From positions 1-48,136 of IMG/VR virus record IMGVR_UViG_3300033064_003319: 48,136 bases of DNA, one strand, 5' to 3'. Positions 3,890 through 23,396 of the stretch are shown one piece after another. Every line of letters starts with the position of its first letter. The first letter of the stretch is position 1. The position numbers and the translations under genes were made by a program. The notes beneath the pieces were generated by a model that was given only the letters and a program-made list of their open reading frames with translations, was not told the origin of the DNA and did not search any database. Origin of the DNA: a virus.

Positions 3890-4822
3890 ATGGCAACTCA
3901 ACTATGGGTAGAATCGTACCGTCCAAAGACAATTATTGATTATGTGTTTAAAGATGCTGCACAAAAGCGTCAAGTAGAAACATGGATTAAAGAAAAGTCA
4001 ATTCCTCACTTGTTGTTTAGTGGCAGCGCCGGTATTGGTAAGACTACACTAGCCAAAGTGTTAATTAATGAGATTGGAATCGAAGGTTACGACGTACTTG
4101 AGATCAATGCTAGTCGCGAAAACAATGTGGACACAGTACGCGATAAGATTGTAAATTTTGTACAAATGATTCCATTTGGTCCATTTAAAGTGGTGCTGCT
4201 GGACGAAGCAGACGGACTATCACCTGCAGCACAAGGTGTATTGCGAGGCGTTATGGAAACGTATGCTAGTACCAGTCGATTTATTCTTACTTGCAACTAT
4301 CCTAATCGAATTATTCCTGCATTACACAGCCGATGCCAAGGTTTTCACGTAGAGAAAACAGATCAAACCGAGTTTACTGCAAGACTAGCAACTATCTTAA
4401 TTACTGAAAATGTCGAGTTTGATTTAGACACACTCGATACGTATGTAAAATTAACTTATCCCGACCTACGTAAATGCATTAACGTGATTCAGCAAAATGT
4501 AACTAATTCTGTGTTACTATCTCCTACTGCAGGTGACAGCAGCACTAGCGACTATAAAATTGATATGGTGGCACTGTTTAAAGCTGGTAAAATACAAGAA
4601 GCACGCAAGTTACTGTGCAGCAAAGCACGCCCCGAAGACATTGAAGAAATCTTTCGCTGGATGTACGACAATCTTGAACTATTTGGTAAAACGGAAGAAC
4701 AAAAAGATTCAGCAGTATTGATTATCAAGCAAGGACTTTGCGATAATACAATCTGCGCTGATTCGGAGATCAATCTTTCAGCATGCTTGATCAAATTAGC
4801 ACGTAATCTAAGAGACAATTAA
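3890..4822 (+). CDS. 44: Sliding clamp loader ATPase subunit (gp44-like, RFC family)
   Basis: 310 residues with AAGGAA upstream. It is an AAA+ clamp-loader ATPase: WVESYRPKTIIDYVF at the start, Walker A GSAGIGKTT (45-53), Walker B LLDEAD (103-108), sensor 1 TCNYPNR (134-140), and the SRC motif (147-149) that carries the trans-acting arginine finger. The C-terminal collar domain follows. T4 gp44 (319 aa) forms a complex with gp62 and loads gp45 at primer ends. No gp62-like gene follows here; instead there is a 588-nt region without a gene. Confidence 0.93.
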   Translation: MATQLWVESYRPKTIIDYVFKDAAQKRQVETWIKEKSIPHLLFSGSAGIGKTTLAKVLINEIGIEGYDVLEINASRENNVDTVRDKIVNFVQMIPFGPFKVVLLDEADGLSPAAQGVLRGVMETYASTSRFILTCNYPNRIIPALHSRCQGFHVEKTDQTEFTARLATILITENVEFDLDTLDTYVKLTYPDLRKCINVIQQNVTNSVLLSPTAGDSSTSDYKIDMVALFKAGKIQEARKLLCSKARPEDIEEIFRWMYDNLELFGKTEEQKDSAVLIIKQGLCDNTICADSEINLSACLIKLARNLRDN

Positions 4823-5280
4823 TAAGTAACTCGTAATACCATACATGCAGAACAGCTAGTGCCGGCATACATCGGGCATCTATGAAAACTGGACGAAAGT
4901 CGCAGGGACAGCAAATTCTTCCGCTGCAGGAAGTACTCATTAACTACCCTTTGGGATGATGATCGGATACGCCTACGTACAACTGATTTTAATGTTTAGA
5001 ATATTTTTTAACTAAGGCTAATGAAGGGACAGTGTGCCCTAGGATTGTGTATATGTTAGCGTATATGCATAATCTGCCGTCGTAATGAAGACTGAGCTCG
5101 AGGTACCGAACGACCGCCTCTGTAATGCTTTAACGCTAGTGACTAACGAACTCAGATAATGTGTTTTTATTTTTTTCTCCCGGCAACGGGCGAATTGTGA
5201 CATTGAATCTAGATAATAGCTCACTAATAATTATATCTTCTTAGTAGTTTTAAAATAAAGTTGAGTGTCAGCGAAAACTT

Positions 5281-5299
5281 TAAAGAGCATCGCTCTTTA
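5281..5299 (+). terminator. Terminator-like hairpin
   Basis: An 8-bp perfect stem TAAAGAGC (5281-5288) with GCTCTTTA (5292-5299) and a 3-nt loop, followed only by TTCAATG, so the U-tract is weak. It may be the 3' side of the putative structured RNA or a terminator for the gp44 transcript. Confidence 0.4.
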
Positions 5300-5338
5300 T
5301 TCAATGCAGTTTTAATATGAATGGAGTATTACGAGTTT

Positions 5339-5403
5339 AAGAAGTGTAGATTGCATAATTTTTGCAGGTCATCTAAAACGGATGATTATGCAATCTACTT
5401 CTT
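5339..5403. repeat. Long imperfect inverted repeat between convergent transcripts
   Basis: AAGAAG (5339-5344) and TAGATTGCATAAT (5347-5359), with a TG bulge between them, pair with ATTATGCAATCTA (5385-5397) and CTTCTT (5398-5403): 19 base pairs. The loop holds a smaller stem, TCATC with GATGA. It lies just before the end of phoH on the opposite strand and could serve as a bidirectional transcript end. Confidence 0.6.
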
Positions 5404-5410
5404 CCACGCC

Positions 5411-6169
5411 TTAAGTTATATCTTTGTAGATTGAAAGGACTTCTTTTACTACAGGATGTCGTTCAACATCTTTTGTTCCGAAGCGTGCAATTGCAATCAT
5501 TTTGTGATCACCTGACTCTTCAAACAGATTACAGAAATCTAGTAATCCATTTTCTTTAATACGGTCACCCTGGGCAAGGTCACCTGTTACTACCATTCTA
5601 GAACCGTCACCCAATCTGGTTAGTAACATTTTCATTTGACTGGGTGTAGTATTTTGCATCTCGTCAGCTATTACAAACGCATTTTTAAAAGTTCGTCCTC
5701 GCATATAAGCTAAAGGAGAAATTTCAATAGTCCCGTCTTCCAACATTTCAGTAATGTCTTTAGGTGAATAATATTCTTCGAATACATCCATAATTGGGCG
5801 TGTCCATGGTGCCATTTTTGCATTTAAATCGCCTGGTAAAAACCCATGCTCTTCATCTACAGATACTGCAGGGCGGGTAATGATAATTTTTTCAATGGTC
5901 CCTTCCTTAAATAACTTAATAGCCATCTGTACACCTAACATTGTTTTACCTGTACCGGCTGGTCCGATGGCAAACACAATGAATTTTTTGGGATTTTTTA
6001 ACAACTCAACATATGTCTCCTGTGATAAATTTCTAGGAACTATCTGTACTTGCTGTTTCTTCTTTTGATACGATTTAATTTGTATCAAATTACTGGCATC
6101 CTGTGTAAATCGTGGATCACGGCTCACTGTGGATTCTTTTTCGCGTCGTCTGGATCTTGGCAATTTCAT
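5411..6169 (-). CDS. phoH: PhoH-like ATPase
   Basis: 252 residues on the minus strand, the only such gene in the first 42 kb. PhoH family P-loop: Walker A GPAGTGKT (69-76), the conserved ITRPAVSVDEEHGFLPGDL stretch, Walker B FVIADEMQN near 165, and VVTGDLAQGD. PhoH-like proteins are common in marine and freshwater phages; an RNA-helicase-like or nuclease-linked role has been proposed, but the phage function is unsettled. GGGAG lies directly against the ATG, an unusually short spacing. A late-type TATAAATA lies ~32 nt upstream. The long N-terminal basic stretch (KLPRSRRREKES) is specific to phage forms. Confidence 0.92.
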   Translation of the reverse strand: MKLPRSRRREKESTVSRDPRFTQDASNLIQIKSYQKKKQQVQIVPRNLSQETYVELLKNPKKFIVFAIGPAGTGKTMLGVQMAIKLFKEGTIEKIIITRPAVSVDEEHGFLPGDLNAKMAPWTRPIMDVFEEYYSPKDITEMLEDGTIEISPLAYMRGRTFKNAFVIADEMQNTTPSQMKMLLTRLGDGSRMVVTGDLAQGDRIKENGLLDFCNLFEESGDHKMIAIARFGTKDVERHPVVKEVLSIYKDIT

Positions 6170-10430: not shown

Positions 10431-10925
10431 ATGCTACAAATATTAAAATTTCCCAATGTTATACTACGTCAATCAATTAAAAAATATGAATTTAATACCG
10501 GTGAGTATGATCCAATTCAATTAGAAAATGATTTAATTGAAACAATGTTGTTAAATGATGGAATTGGGTTAGCAGCGCCACAAGTAGGACTTGCCATTAG
10601 AGTATTTGTAATGGGGCATCGAGATAATCCAGAAGCTGCGCAAGCCTTTTTTAATCCAGAAGTAATTTCTTCAGTTAGTGAAATCGAAGATTTGGAAGAA
10701 GGCTGCTTGAGTTTTCCTGGAATTTATGTTAAAATTAAACGTCCTGTGAAAATTTTAGCACGTTGGCAAACTAGCAAAGGTGAGTGGCAAGAATCAGAAT
10801 TTGATGGATATAATTGCAAGTGCTTTCTACATGAATTAGATCATTTAGAAGGAATTGTATTCCAAGATAGAGTAAGTGCGTTAAAGTGGGCAGTAGCTGT
10901 CAAACAGAAACAAAAAAGGAAATAA
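10431..10925 (+). CDS. def: Peptide deformylase
   Basis: 164 residues. All three family motifs are intact: GIGLAAPQVG (44-53), EGCLSFP (90-96) and HELDHLEG (134-141). Cys92, His134 and His138 would hold the metal. It removes the formyl group from nascent chains. Phage deformylases usually lack the C-terminal tail of bacterial ones; this one ends with a short basic stretch (KQKQKRK). It follows dnaJ by 8 nt without a clear SD. Confidence 0.95.
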   Translation: MLQILKFPNVILRQSIKKYEFNTGEYDPIQLENDLIETMLLNDGIGLAAPQVGLAIRVFVMGHRDNPEAAQAFFNPEVISSVSEIEDLEEGCLSFPGIYVKIKRPVKILARWQTSKGEWQESEFDGYNCKCFLHELDHLEGIVFQDRVSALKWAVAVKQKQKRK

Positions 10926-10927
10926 TA

Positions 10928-13192
10928 ATGCTAGAACCAAATGACGATTTAGAACAAGTTTTTGAAAATGCTATTAACGTAGCTATGGTAAATCATCACG
11001 AGTATATTACAATTGAACACATACTATACAGTATGTTGAATAATCAGCCATTTGCAGAGCTATTAACTTCTTTTGGAACAGATGTACAGGTTCTAAAAGA
11101 CGATATTGAAAATTATATTACTGAACAATTAACCGATATCGTAAATATGGATATCGACGAGCCTAAGAAAACAAATTCAGTAGATCGCATGCTTAATCGT
11201 GCATTTACTCAAGTGCTAGTAGGCGGCCGAAATATTGTTGAACCTGCTGACTGTTTTATTAGTATGTTCTCTGAAAAGAAAAGCCACGCAAATTTCTTTA
11301 TTAGAAAAGCAAACATTGACAAAGATCAATTTATTAATTTTCTTAAAAATGAAATTAGAATTGAAGATCCAGACAATGTGTCTGATAGCCAGATGTCTAG
11401 TCTAGAAAAAACCATTGTACAATTTTGCGCAAATCTAACGTTACGTGCTAAAAAAATTGACCCAGTTATTGGCCGTGAAAAAGAAATTGAAGAAATTCAG
11501 TTAGTGCTGGCACGGCGCGGAAAAGCAAATGCAATTCTAATTGGAGATCCAGGAGTAGGTAAAACTGCCATTGCAGAAGGACTTGCACGTAAAATTCTAG
11601 AAGGCGAAGTTCCTAAGTTCCTACTAAATCATACTGTTTACAGTCTTGATATTTCTGCAATGTTAGCAGGTAGCAAGTATCGTGGTGACTTTGAAGAAAG
11701 ATTAAAAAATGTAATTGGCGCAATTGAAAAACGTGGAAATTGCATCCTTTTTATTGATGAAGCTCATATGATGAGCGGAGCAGGATCAGGCAGCAGTAAC
11801 AGCAATGATATGGCAAATATGCTAAAGGCGTCTCTGGGTAAAGGAACAATTAAAGTTATTGCATCAACTACCTGGGAAGAATATCGAAAACATTTTGAAA
11901 AAGACCGAGCATTAATGCGTCGTTTCCAACGTGTTACTGTTGATGAACCAGACGAAGCAACTGCGATTAAGATTCTTAAAGGTCTTAAGAAATACTACGA
12001 AAAACACCACGGAGTAAAAATTACTAATCAGGCAATTATTGACTCTGTGAAATATTCAGTTAAGTATCTTGCAGATAAAAAGTTGCCTGACAAAGCAATT
12101 GATTTGATTGATTGTGCATGTGCGAGATTCAAAGTTAAAGATGAAGAAAACGGTGTAGTGGATCATGAAGAAATTTTATTTGAAATTTCTAAGATTGCAA
12201 ATGTGCCGTTGGAACAGCTTACTAACAAAGAAAGTAATAATATTCAGAATCTTGAAAAGAATATGAAATCAAAAGTATTTGGTCAAGAAAAAGCAATTGA
12301 TATTTTACTTGATAAAATTTTTATTGCACAAGCAGGATTAAAATCTTTAAATAAACCAATTGGTAGTTTTCTATTTGTTGGCCCAAGCGGAGTTGGAAAA
12401 ACTGAAAGTGCAAAACAACTAGCAAGCAGCCTCGGAGTTAAGCTGGTACGATTTGATATGAGTGAATATCAAGAAAAGCATAGCATTAGTAAGTTTATTG
12501 GTTCCCCGCCAGGATATGTGGGATTTGATGATAATGCAGGACAATTAATTACTTGTTTACAAGAAACTCCTAACTGTGTTCTACTATTAGATGAAGTTGA
12601 GAAAGCACATCCAAGTGTACTAACTATTTTGTTGCAATTAATGGACAACGGTTTTATTACTGGTAGCAACGGTAAACGCGCAGATGGTCGAAATGCTATT
12701 ATCATAATGACAAGCAATTTAGGTGTCGCAGATGCTGAAAAGAATGGAGTAGGATTTGGTAGTTTAGAGCGTGATAGTGATCCAAAGGATGCTGTAAATA
12801 AATTTTTTGCACCTGAATTCCGTAATCGTCTTGATGGTATGATTCGATTTGGTAAACTGGATCATGCCACAATGATGAAAATTGTTAAAAAATTCATCGA
12901 CGAACTAAACTCATTAGTTAAAGATAAAAATATTCATGTTAAACCCAATGTTGCTTCAATGGAATACTTAGTAAAGCATGGGTTTGATAGTAAAATGGGT
13001 GCTCGTCCGTTACAAAGAACTATTGATGAAATGATTAAAAAGCCATTAAGTAAAGAAATTTTATTTGGTAAAATGGCTAATGGTGGAATTGTTGAAATCT
13101 CAGTGGAAGATGATAAGTTAAAACTTACGTCTATTGACATTTTACCAGTGACTCGTTCAAAATCAGTAACTAAAAAAACCGAAACTGAATAA
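10928..13192 (+). CDS. clpA: ClpA-like AAA+ unfoldase
   Basis: 754 residues from the ATG at 10928, chosen for the AAAGGAAA ribosome site; an in-frame start at 10886 lies inside def. Clp N-domain (about 8-140), first AAA+ module with Walker A GDPGVGKT (about 206-213) and [11 protein letters not shown], second with GPSGVGKT (about 485-492) and [10 protein letters not shown]. No ClpB-type middle coiled coil. At about 608-610 a VGF tripeptide lies where E. coli ClpA has its IGL ClpP-docking loop. It probably delivers substrates to host ClpP, as no ClpP is present here. Confidence 0.93.
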
Positions 13193-20729: not shown

Positions 20730-23396
20730 ATGGGTTATGTAGATGGTATGTGGGATAAAGAAAAAGATGTAATTAGAGTAGTAGAACGTGATCCAAAAAA
20801 AGGAAGACTCTACCAGGAATACCCCGCTAGATATATGTTCTATTATCCTGATGGACGAGGAAAATTTAAATCTATTTTTGGGGAAAATCTTACTAAAGTT
20901 ACGGCCAAAACAAATAAAGATTTTATTAAAGAACAACGAGTACACTCAACTCACAAGCTGTATGAATCTGATATTAATCCTATCTTCCGATGCCTTGAAG
21001 ATAATTATCTGGGCAAGGAACCTCCCAAGCTGAATGTGGCATTTTGGGATATTGAAGTAGATTTTGATCCAGAACGTGGTTATGCATCTCCTGATGATGC
21101 GTTTATGCCAATTACTGCTATTTCCGTACATTTACAATGGCTAGATACGTTGGTTTGCTTGGCAGTGCCTCCAAAAACACTTACTATGGAGCAAGCATCT
21201 GAACTAGTTAAGGACATTCCTAATACTATTCTATATGAAACTGAACGAGAAATGCTGGACACTTTTCTTAATCTAATTGAAGATGCTGATATTCTAAGTG
21301 GGTGGAACAGTGAAGGATTTGATATTCCGTATACCGTTAATCGGGTAATTAAAAAATTAAGCAAAGAAGATACTCGTAGATTTTGTTTATGGAATCAGTC
21401 TCCAAAGAAACGAGAATACGAAAAGTTTGGAAAAACTGCTAATACGTATGATCTTGTTGGACGTGTGCACTTGGATAGTTTGAATTTGTATAGAAAATAT
21501 ACCTACGAAGAGAGACATAGTTATCGACTTGATGCAATTGCTGAATATGAGCTAGGTGAAACTAAAACTGTATATGAAGGCACATTGGACCAGCTATACA
21601 ATAATGACTTCCGAAAGTTTATTGAATATAACAGACAAGATACTGCACTATTAGATAAATTAGATAAAAAATTAAAGTTTATTGATCTTGCGAATACTGT
21701 TGCTCATGAAAACACTGTACTACTACAAACTACCATGGGCGCAGTTGCAGTAACTGAACAAGCTATTATCAATGAGGCACACTATCGAGGGTTAATTGTG
21801 CCTTCCCGTGCTAGACGTGATGATAGTGTCAGTACCCAAGCAGCCGGTGCTTATGTTGCGCACCCTAAAAAAGGACTGCATGAGTGGATCGGATCGATGG
21901 ACATTAACTCACTATATCCGTCCGTGATTAGGGCACTGAATATGGGACCTGAAACAATTGTTGGACAATTACGACAAGATTACACAAATGCTGAAATTGA
22001 ATCAAAAATTGAAAAAGGTTCCAGTTTTGCAGCAGCATGGGAAGGTAAATTTGGGTCAAACGAATATGAGTTTGTGATGTCTGAAGATCGTTCCCATGAC
22101 ATCATAATTGATTGGGAAAATGGTGAAACCAGTATCATGTCAGGTGCACAGATATTTGAATTAATTTTTGATAGTGGTAAACCTTGGATGATGAGTGCTA
22201 ATGGTACTATTTTTACGCATGAGTTTGAAGGAATTATTCCTGGACTTTTAGCAAGATGGTACTCTGAAAGAAAAACCATGCAAGCTTCATTAAGGGCTGC
22301 AATTGATGCAGGGAATAAAATTGAAGAAGAATACTGGGATAAACGACAGCTTGTTAAAAAAATTAATCTTAATAGTTTATATGGTGCTATTCTTAACGCT
22401 GGTTGTAGGTTCTTTGACAATCGTATTGGACAGTCAACTACTCTCACAGGCCGGCAAATTGCCAAACATATGGCTTCAAAGGTAAACGAAGTAATTACCG
22501 GTGATTACAACTACGTGGGTAAAAGCATTATATATGGTGATACAGACTCTGTATATTTCAGTGCATATACCACTCTAAAGTCAGAAATTGATAAAGGTGA
22601 GATTCAGTGGGGTAAAGATACTGTTCTAAGTTTATATGATACAATATCAGATGAAGTAAACAGCACCTTCCCTTCATTTATGTCAGATGGGTTCCATTGT
22701 CCAAAATCTCGCGGAGATGTAATTAAGGCTGGCCGAGAAATTGTTGCAAGTAAAGGGTTATTCATTACTAAAAAACGGTATGCAGTGTTGTACTATGATA
22801 AAGATGGAAAGAGACAGGATACCAACGGCAAAGAAGGTAAAATTAAAGCCATGGGGCTTGATTTAAAAAGATCAGATACCCCGGAATTTATGCAAACTTT
22901 TTTGGAAGAAATACTTACTAAAGTATTGTATGGTGCACAGGAAAAGGAAATTCTGGCCAGAATTAGTGAATTTCGCTCTGAATTCAAAGCTAAACCTGGA
23001 TGGGAAAAAGGTTCTCCTAAACGTGCAAACAATATTGCAGAATATCAAAAGAAGGAAGAAAAAGGTAAAACCACTATGCCTGGTCATGTTCGCGCATCAA
23101 TTAATTGGAATACATTAAAGAGAATGAACAGCGACAAATATTCTATTAATATTGTTGATGGAATGAAAGTAATTGTTTGTAAAATGCGTACGAATCCATT
23201 GGGTTATACATCAGTTGCTTATCCAACTGATGAATTACGGTTGCCTAAATGGTTCCAGGAGTTGCCATTTGAACATGACGAAATGGAAATGACAATCATT
23301 GATAATAAATTAGATAATCTTATTGGTGTATTGGATTGGGACCTAAATAGCACTACCAATACAAATAATTTTGGTAATCTTTTTAGCTTTGATTAA
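20730..23396 (+). CDS. 43: DNA polymerase, family B (gp43)
   Basis: 888 residues (T4 gp43 is 898) with AAGGAG upstream. Exonuclease domain: Exo I FWDIEVD (Asp107, Glu109), Exo II GWNSEGFDIPY (about 190-200), Exo III EYNRQDTALLDKL. Polymerase domain: motif A DINSLYPS (from 391), motif B KINLNSLYG (about 543-552), motif C YGDTDS (Asp604, Asp606). All catalytic residues are present, so it should be an active proofreading replicase. The C-terminal end (NNFGNLFSFD) is like the clamp-binding tail of T4-type polymerases. The clamp gene follows. Confidence 0.97.
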   Translation: MGYVDGMWDKEKDVIRVVERDPKKGRLYQEYPARYMFYYPDGRGKFKSIFGENLTKVTAKTNKDFIKEQRVHSTHKLYESDINPIFRCLEDNYLGKEPPKLNVAFWDIEVDFDPERGYASPDDAFMPITAISVHLQWLDTLVCLAVPPKTLTMEQASELVKDIPNTILYETEREMLDTFLNLIEDADILSGWNSEGFDIPYTVNRVIKKLSKEDTRRFCLWNQSPKKREYEKFGKTANTYDLVGRVHLDSLNLYRKYTYEERHSYRLDAIAEYELGETKTVYEGTLDQLYNNDFRKFIEYNRQDTALLDKLDKKLKFIDLANTVAHENTVLLQTTMGAVAVTEQAIINEAHYRGLIVPSRARRDDSVSTQAAGAYVAHPKKGLHEWIGSMDINSLYPSVIRALNMGPETIVGQLRQDYTNAEIESKIEKGSSFAAAWEGKFGSNEYEFVMSEDRSHDIIIDWENGETSIMSGAQIFELIFDSGKPWMMSANGTIFTHEFEGIIPGLLARWYSERKTMQASLRAAIDAGNKIEEEYWDKRQLVKKINLNSLYGAILNAGCRFFDNRIGQSTTLTGRQIAKHMASKVNEVITGDYNYVGKSIIYGDTDSVYFSAYTTLKSEIDKGEIQWGKDTVLSLYDTISDEVNSTFPSFMSDGFHCPKSRGDVIKAGREIVASKGLFITKKRYAVLYYDKDGKRQDTNGKEGKIKAMGLDLKRSDTPEFMQTFLEEILTKVLYGAQEKEILARISEFRSEFKAKPGWEKGSPKRANNIAEYQKKEEKGKTTMPGHVRASINWNTLKRMNSDKYSINIVDGMKVIVCKMRTNPLGYTSVAYPTDELRLPKWFQELPFEHDEMEMTIIDNKLDNLIGVLDWDLNSTTNTNNFGNLFSFD

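Follow-up and report, generated by a model that had tools for sequence, protein, structure and literature searches.

The window, meaning the whole 48,136-nucleotide stretch of viral DNA that was analyzed (IMG/VR record IMGVR_UViG_3300033064_003319), contains a gp44-like clamp loader ATPase gene on the + strand at 3890–4822 (Pfam AAA and DNA_pol3_delta2) and a convergent phoH gene on the − strand at 5411–6169 (Pfam PhoH, 245 bits). The two stop codons, at 4822 and 5411, are separated by 588 nt. The preliminary description had considered this gap to be free of genes, and this was confirmed: the only open reading frame of at least 50 aa within it is a 61-aa frame on the minus strand (5039–5224), where substitutions were found to preserve the helices and not the reading frame. 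The folding energy of the + strand of the 588 nt was −154.6 kcal/mol, compared with −137.6 kcal/mol for shuffled sequences (z = −2.6). No tRNA genes were found within the 48-kb window, and a promoter scan returned 5 sites versus 3.3 expected by chance, which is little excess. Elsewhere, positions 10886–13192 encode a 768-aa ClpA/ClpB-like AAA protein (Clp_N, AAA_2, ClpB_D2-small). A 173-aa open reading frame at 2272–2793 matches a segment of a bacterial DNA polymerase III alpha domain, and the same phage also encodes a family B polymerase (20730–23396).

Using cmscan, Rfam family RF01718 ("Polynucleobacter-1") was identified at 4854–4997 of the + strand with a score of 86.1 bits over the full model, 1–141; it was the sole Rfam match in the entire window. 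Membership in this family is indicated by a score beyond the 37-bit gathering cut-off and by the published helices P1, P3, P4, and P5, which are conserved and covary. The covariance search that the preliminary description had called for therefore returned one known family, and GOLLD, ROOL, OLE, and HEARO did not reach the gathering cut-off anywhere in the window and were not matched up to an E value of 5 at 4600–5500. Comparison by blastn with 50,697 phage records and with 72,556 plasmids likewise gave no match.

The 141-nt RF01718 model corresponds to a 5′ domain only, approximately the first third of the RNA. A DNA pattern derived from the RF01718 hairpin recovered at least ∼50 good loci in viral contigs, and in the alignment of those loci conservation extends ∼300 nt past the Rfam model, up to two terminal hairpins. 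A second pattern, derived from the downstream core, recruited many more viral loci, and at least 178 loci (178 of 232 sequences, window included) match a profile of either the whole RNA or its 3′ core. Nearly all of the matching loci are in uncultivated viral contigs; host-chromosome copies are poorly sampled. The pattern search of genome contigs gave three matches, of which the profile confirmed only the one in a short MAG contig (L230). Both of the others lacked profile support and are probably chance matches. The RNA of the window matches the full-RNA profile at 4843–5220 (229 bits, E = 3e-68), and its helices reach 5298. From the profile and the helices, the full-length structured RNA was determined to be ∼455 nt in length, from the 5′ strand of PK1 to the end of the last hairpin, P14 (∼4846–5298, + strand), beginning ∼20 nt after the gp44 stop codon. 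The interval proposed originally, 4823–5410, does hold the RNA but is slightly too wide, since the strong hairpin at 5346–5398 is a terminator shared with relatives that lack the RNA. Likewise, the suggestion of a new class applies to the remaining two thirds of the RNA, which belong to no Rfam family, but not to the 5′ third, which is the known RF01718.

The structure was obtained from an alignment of 54 sequences, and column-pair covariation was calculated using 96 distinct sequences that carry the RF01718 domain (type A), in which the top covarying pairs mostly stack as Watson–Crick helices. Across the 54 sequences, 77 base pairs in 19 helices, pseudoknots included, were 96.0% paired, a percentage that leans upward because the alignment and the structure come from the same sequences. 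The stronger evidence is provided by two-sided changes, which were observed at 58 of the 77 pairs in this test for compensatory changes among homologous loci. The covariation score was 0.500, compared with 0.182 for shuffles and ≤0.09 for slid partners. No long reading frame is conserved (the median longest stop-free run over six frames is 70 codons). The initial proposal of a large structured RNA with at least eight local hairpins is thus borne out, and the hairpins are conserved and covary beyond chance across the 54 sequences.

All of the following elements are on the + strand. In the 5′ domain, PK1 pairs 4847–4850, which lies outside the Rfam model, with the loop of hairpin P4 at 4924–4927 (91.9% of cells paired, 2 pairs two-sided). 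PK0 (4855–4856 with 4865–4866; 98.1% paired; GC 36, AU 16) crosses P1 (4859–4863/4875–4879), which is conserved and covaries. Hairpin P3 is at 4889–4905, and P5 (4938–4942/4990–4994) closes the 3′ part of the domain, with 100% pairing and two-sided changes at 4 of 5 pairs. In the core, all 12 pairs of the long hairpin P9 (5043–5074) are two-sided, and its loop at 5058–5062 forms PK2 with 5133–5137 (99.3% paired, 4 of 5 pairs two-sided). PK3 joins GUCGU at 5079–5083 to ACGAC at 5110–5114, inside the sequence GGUACCG-NNNN-ACCGCC (98.9% paired, 3 pairs two-sided). P10 (5094–5097/5127–5130; first pair GC 25, CG 21, UA 4) encloses P11 (5101–5103/5117–5119). Toward the 3′ end are P12 (5175–5194), placed with the 54-sequence alignment, P13 (5257–5281), which has a tandem GA step, and P14 (5282–5298), with two-sided changes at 6 of 6 pairs. 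A perfect 12-bp outer helix can be drawn in the window between AACTCGTAATAC (4828–4839) and GTATTACGAGTT (5326–5337); as a conserved element it was rejected, a helix of at least 10 bp being present there in none of ∼90 homologs.

The helices also identify the strand that is the RNA. G-U combinations (170) far outnumber A-C combinations (25) in the helix cells, and the RNA is therefore the + strand. The preliminary description had chosen the same strand from two GNRA loops, and both are present in the window (GAAA at 4895–4898 in P3 and GCAA at 5183–5186 in P12). However, that reasoning is weak because the GNRA loops are not conserved; a GNRA loop occurs at the first position in 3 of the 54 sequences and a GNRA string at the second in 11. 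A compact core with several pseudoknots and many invariant bases could be taken as the signature of a catalytic RNA, either a new ribozyme or one resembling a group I/II intron. We give this explanation very little credence, since no intron or ribozyme model of Rfam was matched and the RNA sits outside any gene, between two complete genes, with the gp44 frame intact.

At least ∼40 loci match the 3′ core only and have a differing 5′ part for which there is no Rfam match (type B). Most of the type-B RNAs retain PK2 through covariation, and nearly all of them retain PK3, with little variation. The RNA is composed of an exchangeable 5′ domain, which is RF01718 in the type-A RNA of the window, and a constant core with multiple pseudoknots. 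The type-B 5′ domain was seen upstream of the core in L124, L134, L137, L182, L131, and L153, where it reads GAGGAACGGTGAGATACCCGGTCCGG... in several. A core model built from both types (R1) was run on 50 records, 47 of which are viral contigs with relatives of gp44/PhoH. The RNA was found in 17 of the 50 records; of the 14 viral contigs that measure 190 kb or more, 10 have it. Among the large T4-like phages that infect uncultivated microbes, the RNA is widespread. Two contigs contain two copies each (L404 and L405 in G028; L406 and L407 in G029). Among the matches listed, the closest to the RNA of the window are L404 and L152, which are 73–74% identical to it across alignments of 386 and 311 bases, respectively.

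The core contains two identical heptads, AGAUAAU at 5154–5160, preceded by CUC, and AGAUAAU at 5211–5217, preceded by UCU (both + strand; RGAURAN in the family), with hairpin P12 between them. The two heptads are identical to one another in 91 of 91 distinct type-A RNAs, though both keep changing, and they are alike at the variable positions in 160 of the 161 loci, types A and B together, that have both motifs among the matches listed. Changes were reconstructed by parsimony on a tree built without the heptad columns. At the three freely varying positions 20, 11, and 12 changes were inferred, and for each of these 43 the two copies underwent an identical substitution on one and the same branch. 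In shifted controls, the numbers of shared changes are 2, 2, and 0. In Watson–Crick helices of the same RNA most, but not all, changes are shared (e.g., 22 of 23 or 24). The preceding triplets stay different, with equality in at most 1 of the 91 RNAs at one position, and because these flanks are never equal as triplets, plain gene conversion is unlikely to be the source of the identity; gene conversion combined with selection on the flanks may be. To our knowledge, covariation by identity rather than by complementarity has not been described for any RNA family.

Several searches were made for what the heptads might contact. No third element that covaries with them stood out in the covariation scan. 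In the flanking DNA there is no enrichment of heptad complements (109 versus 103 expected), the heptad itself is slightly enriched near the RNA on the + strand (p = 0.0085), and copies do not cluster anywhere besides the two known places. A SegE-like endonuclease, frequently encoded next to the RNA, was rejected as the reader of the heptads, there being no co-change after correction (best p = 2e-4 in 426 tests). One tentative reading, for which our doubts outweigh our confidence, is that the heptads are the working part of the molecule, with which the RNA would read one partner or join two sites through segments that are identical and not complementary.

In the window, the RNA occupies a site that is variable among relatives. 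In 104 distinct gp44/phoH gaps, 45 are 54–107 nt in length and contain a terminator hairpin, whose loop is in most cases of the GCAGGTC type; the bidirectional hairpin at 5346–5398 of the window, outside the RNA, has the same loop. The loop (T)TGCAGGTC is kept in most relatives while the stem is free to vary, and a conserved terminator loop is unusual. Several of the longer gaps contain protein genes. Apparently differing genes of this kind were noted in L353, L371, L332, L323, L358, L334, L236, L233, L327, L254, and L345; by eye their products are ferredoxin-like, endonuclease-like, and desaturase-like, and most adjoin the same GCAGGTC-loop terminator. Among the relatives examined, the RNA is found at this gap in the window alone. 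By these comparisons the gap looks like an insertion hotspot, and the RNA of the window is cargo there, since none of the other relatives has it at this gap.

At other loci the RNA is adjacent to a SegE-like GIY-YIG endonuclease gene (PF19835) or, less often, to other genes. Among the matches listed, 131 of 143 type-A loci and 20 of 28 type-B loci encode SegE upstream of the RNA, no more than 700 nt away. With 151 of 171 testable loci having this arrangement, there may be a link in cis between the RNA and the SegE gene. In 170 of the 173 loci listed, the upstream open reading frame runs in the direction of the RNA, and in type A it ends a median of 2 nt before the RNA. The downstream gene is on the + strand in 86 and on the − strand in 85 of 171 loci listed. 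T4 late promoter strings (TATAAATA) were found just past the RNA, 12 in 67 loci, and none was found inside it.

These arrangements bear on three further explanations. The first is that the RNA regulates the downstream gene in cis, as a leader or riboswitch, in line with the "probably" rating of Polynucleobacter-1 in PMC2864571. Half of the downstream genes are suitably oriented, and some of these come after a late promoter string. However, promoters so placed would give transcripts of the next gene that do not carry the RNA. The other half of the copies, including that of the window with phoH, have a convergent downstream gene, which the published rating does not fit. The gene-upstream position presumed for RF01718 is a functional guess in that paper and is outside the family model, and we regard a role as leader as highly improbable.

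The second explanation is that the RNA is a 3′ UTR element of the mRNA of the upstream gene, where it would set stability or translation. The close and codirectional upstream frame, which is SegE in most loci, is consistent with this arrangement. However, the upstream gene differs, being gp44 in the window and, in L152 and L097, a gene whose 173-aa product is nuclease-like, and inserted genes part SegE from the RNA in L147, L202, L061, L198, and L038. In addition, a stability element would not be expected to be as large as 455 nt and to have several pseudoknots, and this explanation, while stronger than the other alternatives, is unlikely. In the third, the RNA and SegE would together form a mobile or homing unit, with the RNA perhaps acting as a guide or target mark whose heptads serve as identity sites. 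Proximity to SegE favors such a unit, and identical heptads in distinct flanks recall paired exchange sites. Against it, the copies in the window, L404, L407, L152, and L097 have no SegE neighbor, no SegE residue changes together with the heptads after correction, and the adjacency largely looks like inherited gene order; we consider it very unlikely. Downstream of L404 and L407 is a gene that by eye is metallophosphoesterase-like.

A conserved RNA is thus found at differing genomic sites without one fixed neighbor. The explanation that we favor, and hold to be probable, is that it is a stand-alone noncoding RNA gene of ∼455 nt in large T4-like phages that acts in trans. The RNA would be transcribed as the tail of the transcript of the upstream gene, gp44 in the window, would fold alone, and would then act in trans, as is thought for GOLLD, ROOL, and the ICP1 noncoding RNA. 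Somewhat more speculatively, and as the reading of the heptads that we prefer, the core may present two copies of a single 7-nt reader segment to the same partner, whether a symmetric protein or an RNA, which would be bound at two equivalent sites; both copies would then have to change together.

In the 2010 discovery paper (PMC2864571), the only place where RF01718 is named in the literature searched, Polynucleobacter-1 was rated probably cis-regulatory ("y") and listed from Burkholderiales in fresh water or estuary; the copies described here are mostly in viral contigs. The whole 141-nt model agrees with the window RNA in sequence and in P1, P3, P4, and P5, but it lacks the 5′ strand of PK1, the ∼300-nt core, the 3′ hairpins, and any pseudoknot. 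Neither the other two thirds of the RNA nor the pseudoknots, the alternative 5′ domain, or the heptad coupling was found described in the literature searched, which covered main texts outside the subscription journals, and within that literature the full RNA may be previously undescribed.

GOLLD and ROOL (PMC12286853) and the ∼800-nt noncoding RNA of ICP1 (PMC7567579) are large phage RNAs of unknown function. GOLLD is likewise a large ornate phage RNA with a constant 3′ and a variable 5′ part, but it is approximately twice the size, its Rfam model is not matched, and no tRNA gene is present in the window. ROOL is similarly large, contains several pseudoknots, and has no protein partner that is known, but the window RNA does not match its model and is not near tRNA genes. 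The ICP1 RNA also lies in a gap without open reading frames in a lytic phage; its expression is known, and no phage record was matched by blastn. By the tests that were run, these three RNAs appear to be the nearest in kind and not relatives.

We have now extended a short and probably misassigned Rfam motif to an ornate RNA of full size that is carried by large T4-like phages, has a second type of 5′ domain, and contains several pseudoknots; alongside GOLLD and ROOL, it constitutes a further widespread class. The paired heptads suggest that a phage RNA can recognize a partner in a manner not yet described and, if this is true, the partner or the reaction (dual seed, strand exchange, or symmetric docking) would be new. 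The function of GOLLD and ROOL is a long-standing question, and the identity of the heptads, which point mutations can abolish and then bring back, would provide a handle on it.
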